DNA from: Histomonas meleagridis | Taxonomy: Eukaryota > Parabasalia > Tritrichomonadida > Dientamoebidae | NCBI GenBank assembly: GCA_020186115.1 | Contig: WSYJ01000186.1 | Span: 1,223,501 to 1,287,500, forward strand | Direction: 5' to 3' | DNA: 64,000 nt | In this document: positions 28,719 through 63,109 of the stretch, piece by piece | How positions within the stretch are numbered: position 1 is the stretch's first letter | Layout of the letters: every line of letters starts with the position of its first letter | Notes under the pieces: generated by a model | Database searches by the model: none | What the model was told of the DNA's origin: nothing | What the model saw: the letters and a program-made list of their open reading frames with translations, nothing else | Program-made: the position numbers and the translations under genes

Positions 28719-29353
28719 TTTTTTTATGATTTCAAAACAGTTTTCATTTAGGCGGTATAACTTTTGAAATAATTTTTTGTCATTTTAGTACTTATTAAAA
28801 TTAAATTAAAAATTGTTTTGATTCATATTTTAAAAAGCTGGTATAAAATGACATTTCTTATATCTTGAAAAGAGCGGGGCTTTGCAACAACCTAAACTTT
28901 GAAATATTTCTTTATTACAAAAAATATCTCAAGATTGCCATAGTTTTTTTTTTTTTTTTTTTTAAAAAAAAGACAGATCAAAGATTATCTAATAAAATAT
29001 TGCATAATTAATATGAAATTTAAAAAAAATTATTATTTTTTTTATTCTAAAACTTACTTATCAGCTTATAATCCTTTTTTATAATAAAAATAACGGAAAT
29101 AATAAAAATCAAATTCATTTATTAGAGGTATAAAATAATACTGACCTCCTGCCTAAAAGACATTCAGATTTTTTGTGTTAAAAGTGTACAATTTTTAGTT
29201 ACCAGTAAAAAAACATGAAATAAGCTGGTGGTTAAACACATTATTCTACTATAACTACAGCTGTCCTTACAAAACTTTGTCGTGGTCGGACAAGGACTTA
29301 AAAGCATTGAGCCCATAAGAAAAGTGACATTTCTAGTGCACCCCAAAATATGT
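28719..29353. other. H3 upstream region with a structured, GC-richer segment
   Basis: The region includes a long T/A run near 28947-28972. From about 29130 to 29350 base composition is less AT-rich than around it. Within it GTCCTT (29263-29268) pairs with AAGGAC (29292-29297), and an alternative inner stem TTGTC (29277-29281) pairs with GACAA (29289-29293). It could be a small RNA gene or a relic. No family was recognised and no long ORF has homology. Confidence 0.3.
28725..28729 (-). promoter_or_regulatory. Possible initiator (Inr) of the histone H3 gene
   Basis: Coding-strand TCATA followed by an A run leads directly to the ATG. It fits TCA-Py-(T/A) and the short leader usual in trichomonads, but it is a weak match by length. 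Confidence 0.35.
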
Positions 29354-32211
29354 AACTAAATAGTAAATCACTTCAGATCATTAAGTTATCGCACATAATA
29401 ATAACTGTCACTAAATATTAAATCACTTCAAATCATTAAGTTATCGCACATAATAATAACTGTCACTAAATAGTAAATCACTTCAAATCATTAAGTTATC
29501 GCACATAATAATAACTGTCACTAAATATTAAATCACTTCAAATCATTAAGTTATCGCACATAATAATAACTGTCACTAAATAGTAAATCACTTCAAATCA
29601 TTAAGTTATCGCACATAATAATAACTGTCACTAAATATTAAATCACTTCAAATCATTAAGTTATCGCACATAATAATAACTGTCACTAAATAGTAAATCA
29701 CTTCAAATCATTAAGTTATCGCACATAATAATAACTGTCACTAAATATTAAATCACTTCAAATCATTAAGTTATCGCACATAATAATAACTGTCACTAAA
29801 TATTAAATCACTTCAAATCATTAAGTTATCGCACATAATAATAACTGTCACTAAATAGTAAATCACTTCAAATCATTAAGTTATCGCACATAATAATAAC
29901 TGTCACTAAATATTAAATCACTTCAAATCATTAAGTTATCGCACATAATAATAACTGTCACTAAATAGTAAATCACTTCAAATCATTAAGTTATCGCACA
30001 TAATAATAACTGTCACTAAATATTAAATCACTTCAAATCATTAAGTTATCGCACATAATAATAACTGTCACTAAATATTAAATCACTTCAAATCATTAAG
30101 TTATCGCACATAATAATAACTGTCACTAAATAGTAAATCACTTCAAATCATTAAGTTATCGCACATAATAATAACTGTCACTAAATATTAAATCACTTCA
30201 AATCATTAAGTTATCACACATAATAATAACTGTCACTAAATAGTAAATCACTTCAAATCATTAAGTTATCGCACATAATAATAACTGTCACTAAATATTA
30301 AATCACTTCAAATCATTAAGTTATCACACATAATAATAACTGTCACTAAATAGTAAATCACTTCAAATCATTAAGTTATCGCACATAATAATAACTGTCA
30401 CTAAATATTAAATCACTTCAAATCATTAAGTTATCACACATAATAATAACTGTCACTAAATAGTAAATCACTTCAAATCATTAAGTTATCGCACATAATA
30501 ATAACTGTCACTAAATATTAAATCACTTCAAATCATTAAGTTATCGCACATAATAATAACTGTCACTAAATATTAAATCACTTCAAATCATTAAGTTATC
30601 GCACATAATAATAACTGTCACTAAATATTAAATCACTTCAAATCATTAAGTTATCGCACATAATAATAACTGTCACTAAATAGTAAATCACTTCAAATCA
30701 TTAAGTTATCACAACTAATAATAAATATCACTAAATACTACATCACTTCAAATCATTAAGTTATCACACATAATAATAACTGTCACTAAATAGTAAATCA
30801 CTTCAAATCATTAAGTTATCGCACATAATAATAACTGTCACTAAATAGTAAATCACTTCAAATCATTAAGTTATCGCACATAATAATAACTGTCACTAAA
30901 TATTAAATCACTTCAAATCATTAAGTTATCGCACATAATAATAACTGTCACTAAATATTAAATCACTTCAAATCATTAAGTTATCACACATAATAATAAC
31001 TGTCACTAAATAGTAAATCACTTCAAATCATTAAGTTATCGCACATAATAATAACTGTCACTAAATATTAAATCACTTCAAATCATTAAGTTATCACACA
31101 TAATAATAACTGTCACTAAATAGTAAATCACTTCAAATCATTAAGTTATCGCACATAATAATAACTGTCACTAAATATTAAATCACTTCAAATCATTAAG
31201 TTATCACACATAATAATAACTGTCACTAAATAGTAAATCACTTCAAATCATTAAGTTATCGCACATAATAATAACTGTCACTAAATATTAAATCACTTCA
31301 AATCATTAAGTTATCACACATAATAATAACTGTCACTAAATAGTAAATCACTTCAAATCATTAAGTTATCGCACATAATAATAACTGTCACTAAATATTA
31401 AATCACTTCAAATCATTAAGTTATCGCACATAATAATAACTGTCACTAAATATTAAATCACTTCAAATCATTAAGTTATCACACATAATAATAACTGTCA
31501 CTAAATATTAAATCACTTCAAATCATTAAGTTATCGCACATAATAATAACTGTCACTAAATATTAAATCACTTCAAATCATTAAGTTATCACATAATAAT
31601 AACTGTCACTAAATAGTAAATCACTTCAAATCATTAAGTTATCGCACATAATAATAACTGTCACTAAATATTAAATCACTTCAAATCATTAAGTTATCGC
31701 ACATAATAATAACTGTCACTAAATATTAAATCACTTCAAATCATTAAGTTATCGCACATAATAATAACTGTCACTAAATAGTAAATCACTTCAAATCATT
31801 AAGTTATCGCACATAATAATAACTGTCACTAAATAGTAAATCACTTCAAATCATTAAGTTATCGCACATAATAATAACTGTCACTAAATAGTAAATCACT
31901 TCAAATCATTAAGTTATCGCACATAATAATAACTGTCACTAAATATTAAATCACTTCAAATCATTAAGTTATCGCACATAATAATAACTGTCACTAAATA
32001 GTAAATCACTTCAAATCATTAAGTTATCACACATAATAATAACTGTCACTAAATAGTAAATCACTTCAAATCATTAAGTTATCGCACATAATAATAACTG
32101 TCACTAAATATTAAATCACTTCAAATCATTAAGTTATCGCACATAATAATAACTGTCACTAAATAGTAAATCACTTCAAATCATTAAGTTATCACACATA
32201 ATAATAACTGT
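29354..32211. repeat. 55 bp satellite array, about 52 copies
   Basis: A 2.86 kb array of head-to-tail 55 bp units, with core CACTTCAAATCATTAAGTTA. Two unit types, with AAATAGTAAA or AAATATTAAA, often alternate, giving a 110 bp higher-order period. A G-to-A variant (TTATCACACA) appears only from about 30210 onward. One strongly diverged unit lies near 30706-30760 and one shortened unit near 31590. Each unit has the inverted repeat AGTTAT / ATAACT separated by 11 bases. There are no spacers, so it is not a CRISPR. It ends 15 bp from the stop codon of the LRR gene. Confidence 0.97.
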
Positions 32212-43573: not shown

Positions 43574-43750
43574 ATGGATTTGATATTTCAAAATAATATT
43601 TGGAAATTCTTCAAATTATTTCAAACAGCACTTATGATCGCATCTTATTATGGTAAGACCGAAATAGTTAAACTATTTCTTAAACAAAAAGAAATTGATA
43701 TAAATACTAAAAATATTTCTTTATTTAGTTTAATGTTTGATTTAATATAA
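43574..43750 (+). CDS. Single-module ankyrin ORF, 58 codons
   Basis: A short ORF from ATG to TAA encodes one linker plus one ankyrin repeat: MDLIFQNNIWKFFKLFQTAL, then MIASYYGKTEIVKLFLKQKE and IDINTK. FQNNIWK...F-TAL is the same linker-repeat boundary as in the downstream array. The same ORF is intact in the other arm (63238-63414). It may be the tail of a deleted ankyrin gene or a real small gene. It lies 128 bp before the ankyrin/DUF3447 start. Confidence 0.4.
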   Translation: MDLIFQNNIWKFFKLFQTALMIASYYGKTEIVKLFLKQKEIDINTKNISLFSLMFDLI

Positions 43751-43878: not shown

Positions 43879-45126
43879 ATGGAACCACTAACAGAGCTAA
43901 ATCAAATAATATTTAATTTAACTGAAGAAAATATTGAGGAATCAGCTCAACAAACAGTAAAATTATTTGATTCGAATTTACCATATTCATTTAATTTTGT
44001 AATAAGTAATTTTGTTTATTCCGCATTTTTTGCTCAAAAGAATACAAGCGATATGTATTTAAGCTATTTAGAATTAATTCGAATTAAGGAAGAAGAAATA
44101 AACAAAAATATGGCCAATATCATTAAAATTTTTACCAAATACATAACACAAATCACAAGTAATGAAACAAATTATCTAATTGAGAAAATGAATGAAAGAT
44201 CTCTAATCGATGAAGATGTTATCAATCATATTTCAACTCATTACTTCGATCATAGAAAATCTAAAAAGTCTAAAGAATCATATCATACTAATTCTTTATC
44301 AGAATATTATTTTAATGAAAATTATGATGAACTTTCAAAAAATGATTGGGAACTTCATAAGCATTATATTAAAGAAGGACATAATCCAAATGAAATTGCG
44401 AAAACAATTCGAAATGATGAAATCGAAAAACTCCAAGAAATATCATCACAAAATAATTTTAATTTTAATCAATTTATTGAATCATCACTTTATGAAAGAT
44501 GTTCATTTATTAATACAGAAAATGTTATATTAATTGATTATGCAGCATTCTTTTCTTCTGTTAAATGTTTCAAATTTTTATTAATGAATAACGCAATTGT
44601 AAAGAATACAGGAAAATATGCAGTTGCAGGTGGAAATGAAGAAATCATTCATTTATGTGAACAAAATCATTCATCATTTTTCGGTTCATGTGAAGCAGCA
44701 ATTAAATTTCATCGAAATGATATTTTTAAATATATTTATGAAAATAAATTAGAATCAGATTTAAATGAAAGAAAGATTGAGGAATTTATGTGTTTATGTG
44801 TTGAATATGGGAATTATAAAATTCTTTCTTTTTTAGAAGAGAAAGGATATGAAATTAAAGATTCCATTATTAATGAATCAGCAAAAAATGGAAATATATA
44901 TCTTGTTAAAAAGTTTCTCCAAAGTAATAAGCCCCCAAATGATATTTTGATGAGTTCTTCTGAATCAGGAAATTATGAACTATTGAAATATATTCTTGAG
45001 ATTAAAGGAATTGATATTAATGCTAAAGATATTTATTTGTTGAATCTAAAATTTATTTTAATAATTTTATATTTCAAAATAATATTTGGAAATTATTTAA
45101 ATTATTTAAAACAGCACTTATATTAG
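43879..45126 (+). CDS. Ankyrin/DUF3447-type protein, 5' part before the array (ANK-A)
   Basis: The frame has an N-terminal helical domain (about 1-180) of the trichomonad ankyrin type, with NDWELHKHYIKEGHNPNEIA before a DUF3447-like block: LIDYAAFFSSVKCFKFLL, then KYAVAGGNEEIIHLCEQN and SSFFGSCEAAIKFHRNDIFK. Ankyrin-like helices follow. It ends in the first 83-base linker at 45124-45126, so alone it encodes 415 residues. An ATG also exists at 43816, but the one at 43879 is preferred because AGTTATAAAYAAATGG is shared with the paralogue start at 59714. Such proteins bind other proteins; no specific role is known. AACGGTTTTACCGATACCC lies upstream at 43759-43777. Confidence 0.65.
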   Translation: MEPLTELNQIIFNLTEENIEESAQQTVKLFDSNLPYSFNFVISNFVYSAFFAQKNTSDMYLSYLELIRIKEEEINKNMANIIKIFTKYITQITSNETNYLIEKMNERSLIDEDVINHISTHYFDHRKSKKSKESYHTNSLSEYYFNENYDELSKNDWELHKHYIKEGHNPNEIAKTIRNDEIEKLQEISSQNNFNFNQFIESSLYERCSFINTENVILIDYAAFFSSVKCFKFLLMNNAIVKNTGKYAVAGGNEEIIHLCEQNHSSFFGSCEAAIKFHRNDIFKYIYENKLESDLNERKIEEFMCLCVEYGNYKILSFLEEKGYEIKDSIINESAKNGNIYLVKKFLQSNKPPNDILMSSSESGNYELLKYILEIKGIDINAKDIYLLNLKFILIILYFKIIFGNYLNYLKQHLY

Positions 45127-46984
45127 CATCTTATTATGGTCATACAGAAATAGTTCAATTACTTCTTGAACAAGAAGGAATTGATATTAATGCTAAAAAT
45201 ATTTATTTGTTTTATTTAATATTTATTTTAATAATTTTATATTTCAAAATAATATTTGGAAATTATTTAAATTATTTAATACAGCACTTATAATAGCATC
45301 TTCAAATGGTCATACAGAAATCGTTAAATTACTTCTTGAACAAGTAGGAATTGACATCAATGCTAAAACTATTTATTTGTTTTATTTAACATTTGTTATA
45401 ATAATTTCTTATTTCAAAGTAATATTTGGAAATCATTTAAATTATTTCAAACAGCACTTATGAATGCATCTTATGAAGGTCATACAGAAATAGTTAAATT
45501 ACTTCTTGAACAAGAAGGAATTGATATTAATGCTAAAAATATTTATTTGTTTTATTTGAAATTTATTTTTATAATTTAATATTTCAAAATAATATTTGGA
45601 AATTATTTAAATTATTTAAAACAGCACTTATATTAGCATCTTATTATGGTCATACAGAAATAGTTAAATTACTTCTTGAACAAGAAAAAATTGATATCAA
45701 TGCTAAAGATATTTATTTGTTTTATTTAATATTTATTTTAATAATTTTATATTTCAAAATAATATTTGGAAATTATTTAAATTATTTAAAACAGCACTTA
45801 TATTAGCATCTTATAAAGGTTATACAGAAATAGTTAAATTACTTCTTGAACAAAAAGGAATTGATATTAATGATAAAGATAAAATTTATTTTAATAATTT
45901 TATATTTCAAAATAATATTTGGAAATTATTTAAATTATTTAAAACAGCACTTATATTAGCATCTTATTATGGTCATACAGAAATAGTTAAATTACTTCTT
46001 GAACAAGAAGGAATTGATATTAATGATAAAAATATTTATTTGTTTTATTTAATATTTATTTTAATAATTTTATATTTCAAAATAATATTTGGAAATTATT
46101 CAAATTATTTAATACAGCACTTATTATAGCATCTAATAAAGGTTGTATAGAAATAGTTAAATTACTTCTTGAACAAAAAGGAATTGATATTAATGATAAA
46201 GATAAAATTTATTTTAATAATTTTATATTTCAAAATAATATTTGGAAATTATTTAAATTATTTAAAACAGCACTTATATTAGCATCTTATTATGGTCATA
46301 CAGAAATAGTTAAATTACTTCTTGAACAAGAAGGAATTGATATTAATGATAAAAATATTTATTTGTTTTATTTAATATTTATTTTAATAATTTTATATTT
46401 CAAAATAATATTTGGAAATTATTTAAATTATTTAAAACAGCACTTATATTAGCATCTTATAAAGGTTATACAGAAATAGTTAAATTACTTCTTGAACAAA
46501 AAGGAATTGATATTAATGATAAAGATAAAATTTATTTTAATAATTTGATACTTCAAAATAATATTTGGAAATTATTTAAATTATTTAAAACAGCACTTAT
46601 ATTAGCATCTTATTATGGTCATACAGAAATAGTTAAATTACTTCTTGAACAAGAAGGAATTGATATTAATGATAAAAATATTTATTTGTTTTATTTAATA
46701 TTTATTTTAATAATTTTATATTTCAAAATAATATTTGGAAATTATTTAAAATATTTCAAACAGCACTTATATTAGCATCTTATTATGGTCATACAGAAAT
46801 AGTTAAAATACTTCTTGAACAAAAAGGAATTGATATTAATGATAAAGATAAAATTTATTTTAATAATTTTATATTTCAAAATAATATTTGGAAATTATTT
46901 AAATTATTTAAAACAGCACTTATATTAGCATCTTATAAAGGTTATACAGAAATAGTTAAAATGATTGAACAGAAAGAGACATAG
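45028..46984 (+). repeat. Tandem ankyrin module array, 12 repeats with 83 or 66 nt linkers
   Basis: Twelve ankyrin modules start at 45111, 45281, 45451, 45621, 45791, 45944, 46114, 46267, 46437, 46590, 46760 and 46913. Spacing is exactly 170 or 153 nt: an 87 nt module (TALILASYYGHTEIVKLLLE and variants, then GIDIN) plus a linker of 83 or 66 nt. The 66 nt linkers keep the frame; the 83 nt linkers shift it. Every module core is free of stops and indels. The final module ends in its own TAG at 46982-46984. The array reads as exons with spacers, but no GT-AG pair restores the frame. Confidence 0.92.
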
Positions 46985-47358
46985 ATATTACAAATATTTT
47001 TTCATTAAAAATTTAATATTCCAAAGATGTGTATTAATTTCATTTAAAAGAAAAATATTTTTTTATATGTTTTAATAATAAAGTGTTTTAAAATTAACTT
47101 TCATAAATGTTAATGATTTCCAAGCTAAGTATCTTTTATCATTAATAACGAAATTCATAATATAGTAAAAGTTTTTATCATATTTAGTTATGCTTTTGCA
47201 TTTTCTTCTCGGATTTCTAGATATCCTATTTAATTGAGGATGATTTGAATTCCTTCAAAGAGTTGTGAATATTTCAAAAATATTATCGAAAAGTTTTGTT
47301 ATCAACAAAAAACATTATTTACAGTAAACTCATTGGGAAAGTTTTAGGGAGAAATACA

Positions 47359-48251
47359 TCAAAATTTATATGAAAATATTTGAGTTTTTAAGCACAAAGA
47401 AATCCATTTGAATATCATATACGAACATTCATCAATTTCTTCTTGACTGAAAGCTTCAACAAAATAATTTAAAGAATTCAAAAATGAAATTAATGTAAAC
47501 GAAATATCATCTAAAGAACAATTATAAAAAATATCTTTAATTGTTTGAAATATGACAATTTTCACAATCTTGAAGCTAACATAAGCGCGGTCTTAAATAA
47601 TTTGACGAATCTCCAAATATTATTTTGAAATAAAAAATTCTTAAAATAAACATTAAATAAAGTAAGCAAATTTCTTTTACATTGATATCATTTTCGATTA
47701 TTTTTGTGATTTCACTTTGATTATGTCCATCTTTAATATATTTCTTATGAAGCTCCTAATTATTCTTTGCTAATTTTTCAAAAATTTTTCGAAAAAAATT
47801 CAATGTATTCTTTATTCTGTAATGTATGTGTTAAATTATGAAATTCTTTCAGTTTAAGTTTTGTAGTTTCTTCAATTGGTAAAAAATGTGCAAAATAAGG
47901 ATTTTTTCGGTTTTCACATATTTTTTTTTTATATGTAAGAAGTTCTATAAAACATTCAATAAGTTTATTATAAGAATTATTATATGTTTCTTTTTCTTTA
48001 GTTTCAAGATATTTTAAAAAATTAAAGCATACCTTATAAATATTCTTTGAAACAAAATATGAATATAAAATTGAACAAATGATTAAATTATATGAAAATA
48101 GAAATTCTTTAAAATAATAAGTTAATGAAGTTTCAATTGTTTCATCAATATTTTCTTCATTTAAATTAAAAATTACTTGCACAATATAATTTAATTTTTT
48201 AATGTTATCAATGTATTTCATTATAACAGTCGAACTTTGTTTTGCTTCCAT
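47359..48251 (-). pseudogene. Broken ankyrin-family gene (ANK-B, left copy)
   Basis: From ATG at 48249-48251 a 157-residue frame begins MEAKQSSTVIMKYIDNIKKL and continues as an N-terminal domain of the ankyrin family. It stops at 47778 after a homopolymer slip. Beyond it the reading shows ELHKKYIKDGHNQSEI, a match to the NDWELHKHYIKEGHN region of ANK-A, but with TAG in place of the Trp codon. It then jumps directly into an array-type linker and, near 47580, into another N-terminal-domain fragment ending FSYKF at 47359. This is a mosaic relic. The right-arm copy is at 59714-60606. Confidence 0.75.
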
Positions 48252-48594: not shown

Positions 48595-49195
48595 TCAAAC
48601 CATTTCGCAGCAACCACCATCAGATGACTTCTTGGCTGGCGCTGCTGCTGCTGGTGGATGAAGAACAATTTTGATCGCAGACTCAAAGACTTCTTTAAGA
48701 TGATATTGTTTCAACGCAGAACATTCAACATAATCATACGCTCCAATCTTGGCTTTCATTTCTTCACCGGTAGATGTAGAAATTGGTTCCATACCTTTGG
48801 ATTTAAGTTCTTCTGCGTGTTCTTCAAACTCGTCTCGAAGATCACACTTCATACCAACTAAGATATATGGTGTAGTAGGACAATGTTCTTTAACTTCAGG
48901 AACCCACATGTTTTGAACATTTTTCTAATGAAGTAGGTGAAACTAAAGAAAAGCAAAGAATAAAAACATCTGTTTGTGGATATGAAAGTGGTCGAAGTTT
49001 CTTATAATCTTCTTGCCCTGCTGTATCCCATAATTGTAAATTAATGGCTTGGTCTTCAACCATAACATTTGCACTATAGTTATCAAAAACAGTAGGAATA
49101 TATTCACCTGGAAATGCATTAGTAGTATACGAAATCAATAAGCATGTCTTACCAACTGCACCATCACCAACAACAACACATTTAATGTGCTTCAT
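48595..49195 (-). pseudogene. Rac-type GTPase gene with one-base frameshift (left copy)
   Basis: This is the inverted copy of the intact gene at 58772-59371. It is 601 bases instead of 600. A run of five T at 48920-48924 (four A on the other strand in the intact copy) breaks the frame after SPTSLE. Upstream are [17 protein letters not shown]; downstream are GMKCDL, CSAL and the CEMV tail. At least one other difference seen is silent, so the copy is young. The shift could also be a base-calling error in a homopolymer. Confidence 0.85.
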
Positions 49196-49340
49196 AACAA
49201 ATTATGTCATAACCGTCGAATCCCGTCTTTCAATACTTTACGTTCAATCTTTGTCATTTTTTGACACCCACCCCTAATTCATATTCAAAATTTGCCCTTT
49301 TCATCCCTTTTCTTTGAAATATAAAAAAACCGTAAAATCT

Positions 49341-50201: not shown

Positions 50202-51362
50202 ATGCCTAAAACCGTAACAAGCAAGACTTTTCAAGATATTTCTCAGGAAAATAATAGTATAAATTTATTACTCAAACTTGAAGATATTATTTTTTCTATT
50301 TCATCTGATTCATGTGAAGCATCTGTTAATTCTGTTCTTCAAATTTACGACCAAAAAAATAGTCATATTTTCAATGTATTATTATGTAGACTTTTATTTC
50401 AATCGTATCTTTCTAAGCGTAATTCTGCAAACGAATGTATTGAGTTTATTAAAATGATTTCTGAACACATTGAAGAAATAAGAAATTTATTTACTCAATT
50501 TATGAATAAGTCATCATATGAACATGAAGCAAATCATATGTTATCTCTAATGCTTGATTATGGATTGATAACGCCTGATCAAATTCAAAAGCGAACATTT
50601 TATTTTGCGCATTTTTATAATGAAAACATTTCAAAAGAAATATTTAATCGAATGAAATTCCAATATTTTCCAAAAAATCCGGGAATGTATTCTGTTCTTA
50701 AGAAAGATGATTGGAAATTACATCTACAATATATAAAAAAAGGAATTAATCAATCACAAATTGCACAAATACTGTTGAATGATGAATGCGATGAACTTCA
50801 ACAAATTGCATCTGAACCACATTTTGACCTCAATCAAAGAATTGAAGTATCTTTATATGAACAATATTCATGTGTAATATCTGTTTCTCTTATAAATTAT
50901 TGTGCATTTTTCGGATCTGTAAAATGTTTCAAGTATTTAATATTAAATGGTGCAATAGTAAATGAAAAATTTCCTGTTGCAGGTGGAAATATTGAAATCA
51001 TTCGAATATGTGAACAAAATGGTGTTGAATTTTCTTCAAGTGCATTTAATACTGCTATTGAATATCATCAAAATGACGTATTCTTTTATCTTTTCGAATC
51101 AAGAGATAATAATATCGATTTTATTAATCATATGATTACAAAATGTATAGAATATTATAACTTCGAGGTGTTTATGTTTTTGATCGAAAACGAAACAAAA
51201 ACTGTTGATCCACTTGTTATTATTACTGCTGCTAGACAAGGAAACATTTATATTATTGATTTCATTTTGTCATTAGAACAAAATAAAGTTATTTCAAGTG
51301 TAAAAGCTGGAAATGATAAAGATGTTTTTTTATTTTGTTATTTGTTTTATTTTCATATTTAA
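50202..51362 (+). CDS. Ankyrin/DUF3447-type protein, 5' part before spaced modules (ANK-C)
   Basis: The 386-residue frame is a diverged paralogue of ANK-A. It has the N-terminal helical domain, KKDDWKLHLQYIKKGINQSQ, a DUF3447-like block (LINYCAFFGSVKCFKYLIL, then FPVAGGNIEIIRICEQN) and further ankyrin-like helices (VDPLVIITAARQGNIYIIDF). It stops at 51360-51362 in an AT-rich linker just before the first spaced ankyrin module. The start ATG at 50202 follows a short leader. It is likely the first coding block of a gene reaching to 53205. Function is probably protein binding. Confidence 0.65.
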   Translation: MPKTVTSKTFQDISQENNSINLLLKLEDIIFSISSDSCEASVNSVLQIYDQKNSHIFNVLLCRLLFQSYLSKRNSANECIEFIKMISEHIEEIRNLFTQFMNKSSYEHEANHMLSLMLDYGLITPDQIQKRTFYFAHFYNENISKEIFNRMKFQYFPKNPGMYSVLKKDDWKLHLQYIKKGINQSQIAQILLNDECDELQQIASEPHFDLNQRIEVSLYEQYSCVISVSLINYCAFFGSVKCFKYLILNGAIVNEKFPVAGGNIEIIRICEQNGVEFSSSAFNTAIEYHQNDVFFYLFESRDNNIDFINHMITKCIEYYNFEVFMFLIENETKTVDPLVIITAARQGNIYIIDFILSLEQNKVISSVKAGNDKDVFLFCYLFYFHI

Positions 51363-53205
51363 AACAGCTTTTCATTATGCAACTCAAAAAGGGTATACTG
51401 AAATTGTAAGACTTCTTTTACGATTTAGAAATATTAATCAAAACTTATCTGATATTTAATCCTATTTTAATTGGTTTCTATAATTTTTTCCATTTTTCAT
51501 GATTTTATTTAATGTTAAATCCAATTTTTTAAGCAGCCAATACATTATGCAATTGAAAAAGGTTTTAAAGAAATCGCATTTCTTCTTATTAAAAGTGAAA
51601 ATTTTAATTATAGTAATACAGTTGTTTGATATGATAATTTGATGATCTTTATTTTATTTATTTTTGAATCTACTTGAGTATGCATGTGCGGATAAGGAGT
51701 TTGAAATTGCGTGTTGTCTTATTCAAAATTGTCATTTTGATCTGAACAAAAGAATTGAAAATAGAATTTCTTTACTTTTTTCGGCGTTTTTTTCTTTTAT
51801 ATAAGAAACTTTATGTTGATTTTATTATAATAATGTATAATTTTAAGTTATAATACTGTTCTTCATATTGCATGTAAAAATAATCAAGTAGAACTTGTAA
51901 AAGAAATTCTTAAATGGTACAAAATCAATCCAAACGAATTTTATGTTTATTTACATTATTTAAAATTTGTTTATATATTCTGATGTTTCAATTTTTCTTT
52001 TGAAACACCACTTATTGTTGCATGTAAAAAAGGCTTTGTAGAAGTAGTTAAGCTTCTTTGTCAAAATCCAAAAATTCGAGTTAATTTATGTAAAATTATT
52101 TTATATAATTTAATGTTTATTTCTTTATTTTAAGTCACCTCTTTACATTGCTTGTGAAAACAGGTTTATTGATGTTATTAGAGTTCTTCTTCAAAATATA
52201 AAAATAGATGTTAATTGTAAAGTTAATGTGAAAAGTGTTCAAATATTTTTAATGATATATATTTTTGTTATTACAAACTTATCCTCTTCATTTTGCTTGT
52301 GAAAAAGGAATTACTGAAATCGTAGAATTGCTTTTACAAAAACCAAAAATAGATGTGAATTTAACTTGTGTTTATTATATTTTTTTTCTGTTAATTTTTT
52401 TCTTTTAGAAGTTTTTTTAATTTATAGAAATTGTTATTTTATAATATTTAAAGTTTATATGATATTTTTAATGTTTGCTTTTTATAGATTTAAAGTTACT
52501 TTTGTTTATTTGGAGTTCTTTTTTATCTAATATAATTGTTTATTTATAATTTTTTTTGTTTCTTAATAATATTTGGAATTTCTTTTCTTAATTTTTCGTC
52601 TGTTATTTTGATTTGATATTCATTTTTAAGTTAGAAAACGCCATTATATATTGCATGTGAAAATGGACATTATGATGTTGTAAAATTATTATTATCACAT
52701 GAAAAAATAGATGTTAATGCAGATTCTGTTTATTTAATGAATTTCATATACGTGTTTATCCATTTCATTTGAAATCTCTTTTCTTTATTTAAAGTTTATT
52801 TGTTTTTTCTATTGTTTTTTCTTAAAATTTGATATTAATTTGTATTTTTTGGTATTTATTTTATGTATTTGATATTAATGTTTTTTATTTTTATATGATA
52901 TATATTTAATGTTTTTCAAGTTTTATTGAATAACTTGTGGTTTATTTATATATAATAAAACAGCATTAGTTGTTGCATGTGAAAAAGAATTTGTGGATAT
53001 TGTTCAACTTCTTTTAGAAAGAGATGACATTGATATAGAATGTTCGGTTTCATCAATGATTCTTTTGTTTTTATATTAATGAAGTTTAATTATCTTTCTT
53101 CCTTCACCACTTGATGTTGCGTATGATTTAGGAAATGATGAAATTATTGATCTTCTTCTTCAAAAGAAAGATGAGATTGATTTTGCATATGATGAAGATC
53201 TTTGA
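51363..53205 (+). other. Ten spaced ankyrin modules of ANK-C separated by non-open linkers
   Basis: Intact ankyrin modules begin near 51365, 51534, 51667, 51852, 52002, 52135, 52278, 52635, 52960 and 53104. Examples are TAFHYATQKGYTEIVRLLL, SPLYIACENRFIDVIRVLL, TPLYIACENGHYDVVKLLLS and SPLDVAYDLGNDEIIDLLL. Modules differ greatly from each other in sequence, so they are old, yet none contains a stop or indel. Linkers of about 60-270 nt have stops in every frame or shift phase. The last module ends at TGA 53203-53205. One linker (52368-52634) fits a GTTTATT...TTAG intron in frame; most others do not fit GT-AG. Confidence 0.6.
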
Positions 53206-53660: not shown

Positions 53661-55552
53661 ATGTTAAATATCTACCTCATCAAATCTATTATGAATTATA
53701 GAAAATTGGTTTTTGGAAAATCTGATTCATTATTTCAATCTGAAAATCAACGAAAAAATATGAATTATCTTCATAATAATAAATTTTTATTTCTAATAAA
53801 TATTGTTTTTCTTATTAATTTATTCATTAATTTATTCATCTCAAAAATAAAGTCAACAAAATTAAAAGTCAATCTTTTTATCCATTTTTAATTTATATCC
53901 TTTTTATTCGGACAAAATCAGAACAATGGTCTGTAACTACAAAAACACTTATAATAGCAAGTGGTGATATAATAGATTCGAGTTTCAAAAATAAGTATAG
54001 TACTATTGCAGAAAAAATCATTTTTTCATATGGATTAACAGAAGTACCAGACAGTGCTCTTTACAAATGGGAATCCCCTAAAGCAGTTGAAATTGGAGAA
54101 TCGGTTACAAAAATTGGAAGTTCTTCATTTAGTGAGTGTTCTAATTTAGAAACAGTTGAAATATTTGGAAATATTGCGCAAATTCCAAATTTTGCATTTA
54201 GCATATGTAGCAAATTAAATTCAATTATATTTTATTACCCAAATATTATTACATCAGGAGGGAATTATACATTTCAATATTGTTCAAGTTTAGCAACATT
54301 AAATCTTGGGGAAAACGTTGAGTCAATTGGTTATTATGCATTTCGAGAATGTTCAAGTTTGGAAACATTAAATCTTGGGGAAAATATTGAGGCAATTGGG
54401 TATTCTGCATTTTATCGTTGTTCAAGTTTGCAAACAATTATTTTTGGAAATAAATTAACAACGATTGGTGTTTATGGATTTAGTCAATGTTCAAGTTTAA
54501 CAACAATAGATCTTGGAGAAAGCATTGAAATAATATGTGAACATGGACTTTATTTTTGTACTAAATTAGAAACAATTATTGTCGGAAATAAATTAACGAC
54601 AATTGAGTCAACTGCATTTGGCTATTGTTCAAGTTTAAAAATTTTCAGCACTCCGACTTCAGTTACATCGCTTGGTGACTATGCATTTCGAAATTGTAAA
54701 AGTTTGGAAATATTTGAACTTGGAAATATTCCACAAATTTCACAGTATACATTTTATGAATGTACAAAATTAAGTTACATTTCAATTCCAGAAACAGTTA
54801 CAACTATTTGTAACAATGCATTTGAAAGTTGTACGAATTTAACATCAATTTATATTACAGGAAATGTTGAAAATATCTGCAATTCAGCATTTCTTAATTG
54901 TGTACAACTTAAATGTATATATTATTATGGAACGCGTGAACAAATTGTTGGAGTGAATGCATTCCAAAACACACAAATAGATACAGTTACTGTAATATCA
55001 ACATCATATGTGAGTGAATCATTTGGAGAACTTAACATTACCAAAACGATATTTGATGAATGTATTCCAGCAACACCTTCATTCACACGCAGTAATACAT
55101 ATTCTACATTAGCCAAATCAAATTCATATATTGAATCGAATACGTTTTCACAAAGTAATTCATATTCACAGTCAAATACTTATTCTCAAAGTAAAACATT
55201 TACATTTTCTGATTCAAATACATATTTCACTTTATTTGTAACAAACAAAAATTTACAATTCGTTTCAACTATTTCTTGTTCATTTACATTGATATATTCA
55301 TTATCCTATAGCCAAACATTAAGCGTTTTCAACTCTTTTTTAACAAATTCAATTTCTGATATAAACTCAATATTCACTTATGTTACAACAGAATTTATTT
55401 ATTATAATTATACAATATTTATATATTCAAATTATTACTGTTTTTATTCTGATTTTTTTACTGTTTTTTATATAAATGAATTTAATAAAAATGAAGAAAT
55501 AATAGGTATGAGACATTTCAGAACAGTATCAGTTTTCTTGATGCTTATTTGA
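53661..55552 (+). pseudogene. BspA-like LRR surface protein gene, frameshifted near the start
   Basis: An ATG at 53661 opens 76 codons ending in a strongly hydrophobic segment (KFLFLINIVFLINLFINLFI), fit for a signal anchor, and stops at 53891. The LRR frame is open from about 53833 to 55552 but has no ATG until near its end. It holds BspA-type repeats such as CSSLQTIIFGNKLTTIGVYG and CTNLTSIYITGNVENICNSA, then IYYYGTREQIVGVNAF and a Ser/Thr-rich tail with SNTYSQS-like repeats. Joining the two needs a one-base slip in the T runs at 53874-53920. BspA-like proteins of trichomonads are exposed at the cell surface and bind host or bacterial targets. A weak hydrophobic stretch occurs near 55440 in another frame. 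Confidence 0.7.
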
Positions 55553-60981: not shown

Positions 60982-63109
60982 CTATGTCTCTTTCTGTTCA
61001 ATCATTTTAACTATTTCTGTATAACCTTTATAAGATGCTAATATAAGTGCTGTTTTAAATAATTTAAATAATTTCCAAATATTATTTTGAAATATAAAAT
61101 TATTAAAATAAATTTTATCTTTAGCATTAATATCAATTCCTTCTTGTTCAAGAAGTAATTTAACTATTTCTGTATGACTATTTTCAGATGACCAAATAAG
61201 CGCTGTATTAAATAATAGAAATAATTTCCTAATATTATTTTGAAATATAAAATTAATAAAATAAATATTAAATAAAACAAATAAATATTTTTATCATTAA
61301 TATCAATTCCTTCTTGTTCAAGAAGTAATTTAACTATTTCTGTATGACCATAATAAGATGCTAATATAAGTGCTGTTTTAAATATTTTAAATAATTTCCA
61401 AATATTATTTTGAAATATAAAATTATTAAAATAAATTTTAGATTAAACAAATAAATATCTTTAGCATTAATATCAATTCCTTCTTGTTCAAGAAGTAATT
61501 TAACTATTTCTATATGACCACATTGAGATGCAAAAATAAGTGCTGTTTTAAATAATAGAAATAATTTCCAAATATTATTTTGAAATATCAAATTAATAAA
61601 ATAAATATCAAATAAAACAAATAAATATCTTTGGTATTATCATCAATTCCTTTTTGTTCAAGAAGTAATTGAACTATTTCTGTATGACCATAATAAGATG
61701 CTAATATAAGTGCTGTTTGAAATAATTTAAATAATTTCCAAATATTATTTTGAAGTATCAAATTATTAAAATAAATTTTATCTTTAGCATTAATATCAAT
61801 TCCTTCTTGTTCAAGAAGTAATTTAACTATTTCTATATAATCTTTATAAGATGCAATCATAAGTGCTGTATTAAATAATTTAAATAATTTCCAAATATTA
61901 TTTTGAAATATAAAATTATTAAAATAAATATTAAATAAAAATAATAAATATTTTGAGCATTAACGTCAATTCCTTTAATCTCAAGAATATATTTCAATAG
62001 CTCAAAATTTCCTGATTCAGAAGAACTCATCAAAATATCATTTGGGGGCTTATTACTTTGGAGAAACTTTTTAACAAGATATATATTTCCATTTTTTGCT
62101 GATTCATTAATAATGGAATCTTTAATTTCATATCCTTTCTCTTCTAAAAAAGAAAGAATTTTATAATTCCCATATTCAACACATAAACACATAAATTCCT
62201 CAATCTTTCTTTAATTTAAATCTGATTCTAATTTATTTTTCATAAATATATTTAAAAATATCATTTCGATGAAATTTAATTGCTGCTTCACATGAACCGA
62301 AAAATGATGAATGATTTTGTTCACATAAATGAATGATTTCTTCATTTCCACCTGCAACTGCATATTTTCCTGTATTCTTTACAATTGCGTTATTCATAAG
62401 TAAATATTTGAAACATTTAACAGAAGAAAAGAATGCTGCATAATCAATTAATGTAACATTTTCTGTATTAATAAATGAACATCTTTCATAAAGTGATGAT
62501 TCAATAAATTGATTAAAATTAAAATCATATTGTGATGATATTTCTTGGAGTTTTTCGATTTCATCAGTTCGAATTGTTTTCGCAATTTCATTTGGATTAT
62601 GTCCTTCTTTAATATATTGCTTATGAAGTTCCCAATCATTTTTTGAAAGTTCATCATAATTTTCATTAAAATAATATTTTGATAAAGAATTAGTATGATA
62701 TGATTCTTTAGACTTTTTAGATTTTCTATGATCGAAGTAATGAGTTGAAATATGATTGATAACATCTTCATCGATTAGAGATCTTTCATTCATTTTCTCA
62801 ATTAGATAATTTGTTTCATTACTTGTGTTTTGTGTTTTGTGTTATGTATTTGGTAAAAATTTTAATGATATTGGCCATATTTTTGTTTATTTCTTCTTCC
62901 TTAATTCGAATTAATTCTAAATAGCTTAAATACATATCGCTTGTATTCTTTTGAGCAAAAAATGCGGAATAAACAAAATTACTTATTACAAAATTAAATG
63001 AATATGGTAAATTCGAATCAAATAATTTTACTGTTTGTTGAGCTGATTCCTCAATATTTTCTTCAGTTAAATTAAATATTATTTGATTTAGCTCTGTTAG
63101 TGGTTTCAT
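60982..63109 (-). pseudogene. Broken ankyrin/DUF3447 gene with six-module array (ANK-A, right copy)
   Basis: The start corresponds to MKPLTELNQIIFNLTEEN at 63107-63109. Compared with the intact left copy there is a 7-base tandem gain (extra ACACAAA near 62824-62840), a one-base gain in an A run near 62240, and a G-to-T nonsense change near 62213. The array has six modules, with marks at 61869, 61716, 61546, 61376, 61206 and 61053, spaced 153, 170, 170, 170 and 153. All six module cores are intact. It ends in TAG at 60982-60984 as on the left. Confidence 0.85.

Follow-up and report, generated by a model that had tools for sequence, protein, structure and literature searches.

The window, a stretch of 64,000 nucleotides from Histomonas meleagridis that was analysed as a whole, contains an ankyrin-repeat locus, ANK-C, in which an N-terminal coding block is followed by ten 27-residue ankyrin modules whose start positions are spread over all three frames (Table 1). 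The open reading frame (ORF) at 50202-51362 matches Pfam PF11929 (DUF3447) (E 4e-08, 33.5 bits against a curated cut-off of 26.9), and the N-terminal block shares 38% identity with P0002. Because the last module carries an acidic tail and the stop codon at 53203-53205, ANK-C looks like one gene. An earlier note on this DNA had described the ten modules as intact and every linker between them as non-open, and both descriptions hold. None of the ten modules contains a stop, whereas dinucleotide shuffles gave a mean of 9.1 of 10 and never reached zero in 2,000 trials; of the nine linkers between modules, eight have a stop in the entry frame and the ninth (52216-52279) shifts the frame. What goes beyond that note is that ANK-C includes the 5' ORF and the terminal stop, that the layout recurs on a genome-wide scale, and that linker lengths change in steps of 20 nt.

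Table 1 Features of ANK-C and of two arrays of the same plan in the window (k, number of 20-nt steps in a length of 9+20k nt).
Feature	Position	Strand	Remark
N-terminal coding block, DUF3447 and ankyrin-like repeats	50202-51326	+	open until Val codon (codon 31) of final repeat
Linker 0, 49 nt (k=2)	51315-51363	+	hand count; separates codons of ORF 50202-51362 from module 1
Ankyrin module 1	51364-51444	+	
Linker 1, 89 nt (k=4)	51445-51533	+	
Ankyrin module 2	51534-51614	+	
Linker 2, 52 nt	51615-51666	+	
Ankyrin module 3	51667-51747	+	weak; missed by one module scan
Linker 3, 107 nt	51748-51854	+	
Ankyrin module 4	51855-51935	+	
Linker 4, 69 nt (k=3)	51936-52004	+	
Ankyrin module 5	52005-52085	+	
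Linker 5, 49 nt (k=2)	52086-52134	+	
Ankyrin module 6	52135-52215	+	
Linker 6, 64 nt	52216-52279	+	shifts frame; without entry-frame stop
Ankyrin module 7	52280-52360	+	
Linker 7, 277 nt	52361-52637	+	TAG at codon -2, where Phe codon expected
Ankyrin module 8	52638-52718	+	
Linker 8, 241 nt	52719-52959	+	
Ankyrin module 9	52960-53040	+	
Linker 9, 63 nt	53041-53103	+	
Ankyrin module 10 (final), acidic tail and stop	53104-53205	+	module core 53104-53184; missed by one module scan
Paralogous gene with same plan: homogenised 170/153-nt array behind an N-terminal ORF	43879-47000	+	final module seemingly frameshifted, decayed
Third array, same plan as ANK-C	61009-61976	-	

The two other arrays, ending at 46913-46984 and near 61000 (minus strand), have an identical last module, TALILASYKGYTEIVKMIEQKET*, apparently frameshifted, which is a sign of recent duplication. 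By eye, an isolated ankyrin module and the beginning of a linker lie at 43620-43740, just upstream of the paralogous gene, and an apparent decayed copy of a linker and module lies at 47575-47700 on the minus strand. The window further holds a BspA-like leucine-rich repeat ORF at 54359-55552 (LRR_5, E 2.5e-42) and, at 29351-32211, a 55-bp satellite of 52 copies with 97% matches and a strong strand skew. On the minus strand, 48600-49200 holds a reading frame that we take to be a Rho/Rac-like GTPase; by eye, an A-run near 48925 has one base too many and seems to interrupt the frame, either through a homopolymer assembly error or because this is a pseudogene.

The linkered ankyrin layout is genome-wide and defines a very large family. 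In pattern searches over 121 contigs (43,276,120 bases), the class-A linker core occurred 3,297 times and its reversed control never, so that the one-module-per-block layout for which a search in other ankyrin genes had been proposed does recur there. The same searches gave 2,599 copies of the class-B core (5 reversed; one linker may count repeatedly, the 20-nt units being alike), 2,099 matches to the module framework (0 reversed) and 3,516 to the linker-to-module junction (0 reversed). A protein-matrix scan of 20 loci plus the window (21 sequences) then yielded 243 modules and 209 linkers, which fall into three classes: A, with lengths of mainly 72 or 89 nt; B, made of tandem 20-nt units; and C, which is diverged and holds most of ANK-C, although the sorting script put its 277-nt linker into class A. 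The loci (L035-L054, 20 out of a planned 29) were chosen from matches with interrupted or ~150-nt-spaced repeats, L001-L030 lying outside the linker scan, and are thus not a random sample of ankyrin genes. A stop costs 4 units in the module matrix; with a median module score of 69.5 against a cut of 13, a single stop would not hide most modules.

The site of the linker is fixed: it lies in the loop between the last helix and the opening Thr of the next repeat, between an Ile/Val and a Phe codon, and its borders are located to within a few bases. In a codon-wise count over 207 distinct linkers, codon 31, mostly Ile or Val, is a stop once and codon 32 seven times, four of these in L056, an old array with ten linkers. 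At the 3' border there are 0 stops at codon -1, 1 at -2 and 67 at -3, 57 of the last in class B, where codons -3 and -4 are both stops in 57 of 59 distinct linkers. As stops are scarce in class A at these positions (2 of 92 linkers at each of codons 32 and -3), the placement of the borders rests on the other classes. The first junction of L056 is linker-free and reads AAT GTA TTA TTT GAA TCT, and P0012, a protein of a second species, reads VMFE at the linker place; both keep the Val and the Phe. By eye, linkers begin with RTTTATTTG and carry TTTGGA about 20 nt before their 3' end.

Linker lengths follow 9+20k in 141 of 176 cases when the 72-nt class (43 linkers) is excluded; by eye, a codon added to k=3 gives the length of that class. 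ANK-C conforms in just 4 of its 10 linkers. Nine linkers of L056 measure exactly 89 nt and have a mean identity of 0.54 against 0.39 when shuffled, one is 90 nt and one further gap measures 215 nt, and the autocorrelation at 20 nt is 0.51 versus 0.41 (sd 0.02). Unit duplication may explain the 20-nt step, and constraint or a low indel rate its exactness. An exact short-junction pattern built on the common framework returned a sole k=1 linker (G000:C59:85166-85214). Between loci, class-A linkers and modules are conserved to a similar degree: in the 10-14% divergence band they show 0.118 differences per site, and codon positions 1, 2 and 3 show 0.136, 0.093 and 0.134, values compatible with a functional element or with recent spread. 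Taken modulo 3, linker lengths divide into 99, 20 and 90, and no single reading frame can therefore run through all of them.

Relatives of the family outside this genome break at or shortly after the linker site. Seventeen ENA proteins (P0007-P0020, P0022-P0024), encoded on 1.3-2.4-kb contigs, match it at 37-57%, and P0009 and P0012 come from another organism, as their best matches in this genome reach at most 55% and 60%. The 17 N-terminal ORFs of this second species reach exactly to codon 31 of their last repeat in 8 cases, extend 9-30 residues further in 7 and end earlier in 2 (by eye; these are predicted ends, at a stop or at the contig end). The earlier note had held that orthologues with continuous, linker-free ankyrin frames would speak against it; in this comparison, which covers proteins only, the ORFs instead break off at or shortly after the linker site. 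Database relatives of the DUF3447 ankyrin family include T. foetus, T. musculus and T. vaginalis, and a search for relatives in viral and prokaryote contigs found none. P0021, a Histomonas member of the family, is called caskin in NCBI, a name that was probably transferred.

Two lines of evidence bear on whether linkers, at least those of class A, are translated, the 72-nt class as a 24-residue insert and other lengths passed by frameshifting or bypass. The entry frame is open in 27 of 51 class-A linkers with a length divisible by 3 and in 26 of 47 with remainder 2, the shuffled expectation being 3.0 and 2.5, and the exit frame is open over the last 60 nt in 22 of 36 class-A linkers of 72 nt and 32 of 42 of 89 nt. 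Moreover, in other ENA fragments of the second species, 72-nt linkers read through in frame as AKDxVYFNNLxFQNNIWNFFKLFx, although these are predicted ORFs only and a biased set. This openness and these open 24-residue inserts are the main results contrary to the removal of linkers. However, frame +1 is open at nearly the same rate, in 16 of 36 and in 25 of 42 linkers, and a stop-poor consensus may thus explain part of the class-A openness; 14 of 36 linkers of 72 nt and 10 of 42 of 89 nt do contain stops, whereas the modules hold none. The paired stops at codons -3 and -4 of class B, the frame disruption by 89-nt linkers and a pN/pS of 1.14-1.44 for linkers read as codons also argue against translation, which we consider unlikely, if less so than the other alternatives discussed below. 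A -1 frameshift at a TTTAAAT run, seen by eye in 89-nt class-A linkers, was rejected as a candidate, the run being missing in several diverged 89-nt linkers.

The modules behave as coding sequence. Those that precede linkers in the 21 sequences contain 1 stop in 4,770 codons (0 of 2,340 in class A, 0 of 1,350 in class B and 1 of 1,080 in class C; 159 of the 209 units, common lengths only), whereas the other two frames of the same stretches contain 146 and 431 stops in class A, 204 and 254 in class B and 86 and 174 in class C; the exit frame of the linkers has 28, 119 and 29, respectively. Flanking blocks are thus coding and the insertions are not, a contrast that is clearest for classes B and C because class-A linkers are more open than their shuffles. 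Within these limits, modules behave like exons and linkers like introns.

Selection on the modules, which the earlier note had read from their intactness, is supported by these stop counts together with codon tests on class A. Framework codons have a pN/pS of 0.61 (5-95% over locus-strands 0.56-0.65) and the ligand-facing codons 5, 8, 9 and 11 one of 1.74 (1.46-2.19), in 78 class-A units from 11 locus-strands with 1,500 pairs sampled between locus-strands; the estimate covers class-A arrays of the same family, the ANK-C modules being too diverged from each other. A dN/dS near 1 had been named as the outcome that would count against selection, and raw within-array values over all codons are indeed near or above 1 in several arrays, although such values are uninformative, as they mix diversified with framework codons; the framework estimate agrees with selection. 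Among the first 100 of the 2,099 framework matches, codons 8-9 show an in-frame stop in 0 of 33 distinct hexamers, where column shuffles expect 10.1, and the two other frames hold stops in 3 and 16 of the 33. Immediately ahead of the opening Thr, the codon is a stop in none of 159 units, and takes 17 forms, none of them a stop, among 100 listed of the 3,516 junction matches. In class-A modules (83 units), codons 5, 8, 9 and 11 and the pre-Thr codon are hypervariable within a conserved framework, as in a binding repertoire. Codons 8 and 9 and the pre-Thr codon correspond to positions randomised in designed ankyrin proteins.

Stops within modules are concentrated at array ends, 10 of 11 stop-bearing modules being the last of their own array. 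Among 27 array ends, the last module has a stop at codon 23-35 in 14; in 9 of these the stop is not followed by a linker-like start, while in the other 5, both other arrays of the window included, it is, and these ends may be decayed. Several of the clean ends look like capping repeats, e.g. TALQIAQQKGYTEIVNLLSEKRPNSNS*. Of the remaining 13 arrays, ten continue into a stretch beyond the module (three of these with a weak module, score 7-13, and an end beyond the last linker), two have a stop as early as codon 4 or 6, and the stretch read of the thirteenth shows no stop.

These data also bear on a second alternative, that the arrays are untranslated relics behind an expressed N-terminal ORF and that their modules are intact only through recent duplication or homogenisation. 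The open N-terminal ORFs that end at the first linker are what such relics would show, as are the homogenisation of several arrays, the raw dN/dS values and the decayed last module of some. Against this, the old arrays ANK-C and L056 keep modules as intact as those of young arrays, framework and variable codons differ in pN/pS, and stops are nearly confined to last modules while the co-duplicated linkers are full of them. We therefore regard relic arrays as improbable, on a par with or slightly below translated linkers.

The linkers do not match a known type of intron. The earlier note had doubted both GT-AG and Trichomonas splice sites, rightly by our counts: an in-frame, stop-free GT..AG is possible in 19 of 209 linkers and 37 of 209 lack any GT, GTATGT occurs in 4 of 209, and ACTAAC or CTAACA in none of 209, which leads us to reject both GT-AG spliceosomal introns as such and Trichomonas-type introns (GTATGT with a fused ACTAACACACAG) as identities of the linkers. 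In ANK-C, where that note had counted one linker with an in-frame GT-AG, two permit it (51748-51854 and 52361-52637), 2 of 9 against about 1.4 of 9 in shuffles; the ACAG and TTAAG ends of linkers are, by eye, mostly codons of the preceding residue and of the opening Thr/Ser of the next repeat. The exact Trichomonas-type 12-mer has 3 genomic copies against 2 for its reversed control. A Trichomonas-type intron, GTATGTT..ACTAACACACAG, of 71 nt interrupts a frame in L032, one that resembles what we take to be a DHHC protein; in L033 the 3' intron motif lies ahead of a kinase-like frame, where a search found no 5' motif, and L031 looks unrelated. An Rfam search found no U1 in the genome, nor in the control genomes, and one U6-like match fell just below the cut-off (43.7 versus 44 bits). 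Ordinary spliceosomal GT-AG introns with weak and drifting sites could account for the GTTTATT at the start of some old linkers, for the two ANK-C linkers and for the presence of the L032 intron; given the near-shuffled ANK-C count and the linkers that lack GT, we think this is quite unlikely.

Folding gave nothing stable, with mean z of -0.77, -0.53 and -0.23 for linkers of 69, 72 and 89 nt, and a consensus fold was absent in 64 distinct 89-nt linkers as in a column-shuffled control, a weak test on AT-rich RNA. Hairpins of the euglenid type that pair intron ends were rejected as a candidate on the same weak test.

Two further alternatives are very improbable. Linkers might be excised from DNA in some expressed gene copy, as are the internal eliminated sequences of ciliates, and stepped lengths recall the ~10-bp periodicity of the Paramecium elements (PMC3464196, in part); here, however, lengths advance by 20 nt, none of them falls at residue 10, the step follows the repeated 20-nt unit, the one exact pattern for linker-free junctions gave just the single k=1 linker, and these cells have one kind of nucleus. 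Equally remote is a silent store whose modules, with variable ligand-facing codons inside a conserved framework, would be donors for recombination into an expressed gene, given that neighbours among 100 listed framework matches show, by eye, linkered spacings such as 153, 170 or 340 nt and none of 99 nt, and that donors need no final stop.

Altogether, we favour a model whereby each array would be one gene, with an N-terminal DUF3447/ankyrin block, exon-like modules and a last module that carries the stop, while each repeat would come with one linker, an untranslated intron-like element assembled from AT-rich units of 20 nt. A single transcript would be made and the linkers removed before translation by a route tolerant of their borders, either a relaxed spliceosome or another excision process, giving a large set of ankyrin proteins varied at ligand-facing residues. 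From sequence, we give a probability of about 0.57 to this reading, in which a non-GT-AG intron-like element sits in each repeat and is most likely removed from the transcript by an undescribed route. That linkers are removed, and removed in RNA, we infer from the contrast in stops between modules and linkers, the stops at array ends, the pN/pS contrast, the mixed linker frames and the ORF ends of the second species. Since the linkers are intron-like without the usual splice signals, excising them would seem to require a mechanism undescribed in the lineage, and since the canonical signal is kept elsewhere in the genome, RNA removal outside the canonical GT-AG pathway is favoured. Several observations point the other way: the openness of class A, the conservation of linkers, the TAG in linker 7, the fit of only 4 of 10 ANK-C lengths, the lack of a known splice signal or a stable fold, possibly decayed ends, the choice of loci by layout, and an annotation with at most one intron per gene (PMC8529796, in part). 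More tentatively, and with rather less confidence than an even chance, we suggest that the genome may hold thousands of non-GT-AG introns of 20-nt units, one in each repeat and all within one ankyrin superfamily, served by an excision system new to parabasalids.

Such elements would alter the current view of these genomes. The parts of the literature available to us call parabasalids intron-poor and describe the splice consensus of T. vaginalis as extended and rigid (PMC8529796, PMC12316389, PMC11978803, PMC12428144): 573 introns are annotated in Histomonas, with no gene holding more than one (PMC8529796), introns occur in 5.66% of T. musculus genes (PMC11978803), 87.4% of T. foetus genes consist of one exon (PMC12428144), and T. 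vaginalis has 63 active introns, three of them in ankyrin-repeat genes (PMC12316389). The word ankyrin is absent from the main text of the Histomonas genome paper (PMC8529796), one publication on Histomonas and ankyrin names, in the part available, only a KANK1-like protein, and among the matches listed, which mostly lie outside the subscription literature, we found no description of such linkers in Histomonas or trichomonad ankyrin or DUF3447 genes. If the proposal of thousands of introns is true, the intron count would be several-fold over the 573 annotated and would come with a large ankyrin receptor repertoire varied at ligand-facing positions. If linkers are removed, the intron-poor picture would be several-fold wrong for H. 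meleagridis, a single-celled poultry parasite would have a novel removal route, and a hypervariable ankyrin family that is otherwise read as truncated ORFs would become visible.

Several known systems share features with these arrays and their linkers. By N-terminal domain and ankyrin repeats, compared on proteins rather than gene structure, the family is like the trichomonad DUF3447 (PF11929) ankyrin family. Animal ankyrin genes also have exons that follow the protein repeat by repeat, and this plan is common to them and the Histomonas arrays, whereas the introns of the animal genes are of the GT-AG type. Like the internal eliminated sequences of Paramecium, linkers interrupt genes and have periodic lengths (PMC3464196, in part), although their step comes from repeated 20-nt units. 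With the nonconventional introns of euglenids and diplonemids they have in common non-canonical borders, junction repeats, a purine at the first position and a removal route that is not known (PMC4770533, PMC6221363, in part); they differ in sitting at a constant site of the repeat, in the conservation of their sequence, in lengths that go up by steps and, on a weak test, in the lack of a stable fold. Finally, like the introns of Trichomonas vaginalis and Giardia, with GTATGT and a fused ACTAACACACAG, they are short untranslated gene insertions in the same wider lineage. In contrast to those introns, the linkers have neither GT-AG ends nor a fused branch site, number thousands rather than tens, and occur once per repeat with lengths that rise in steps.
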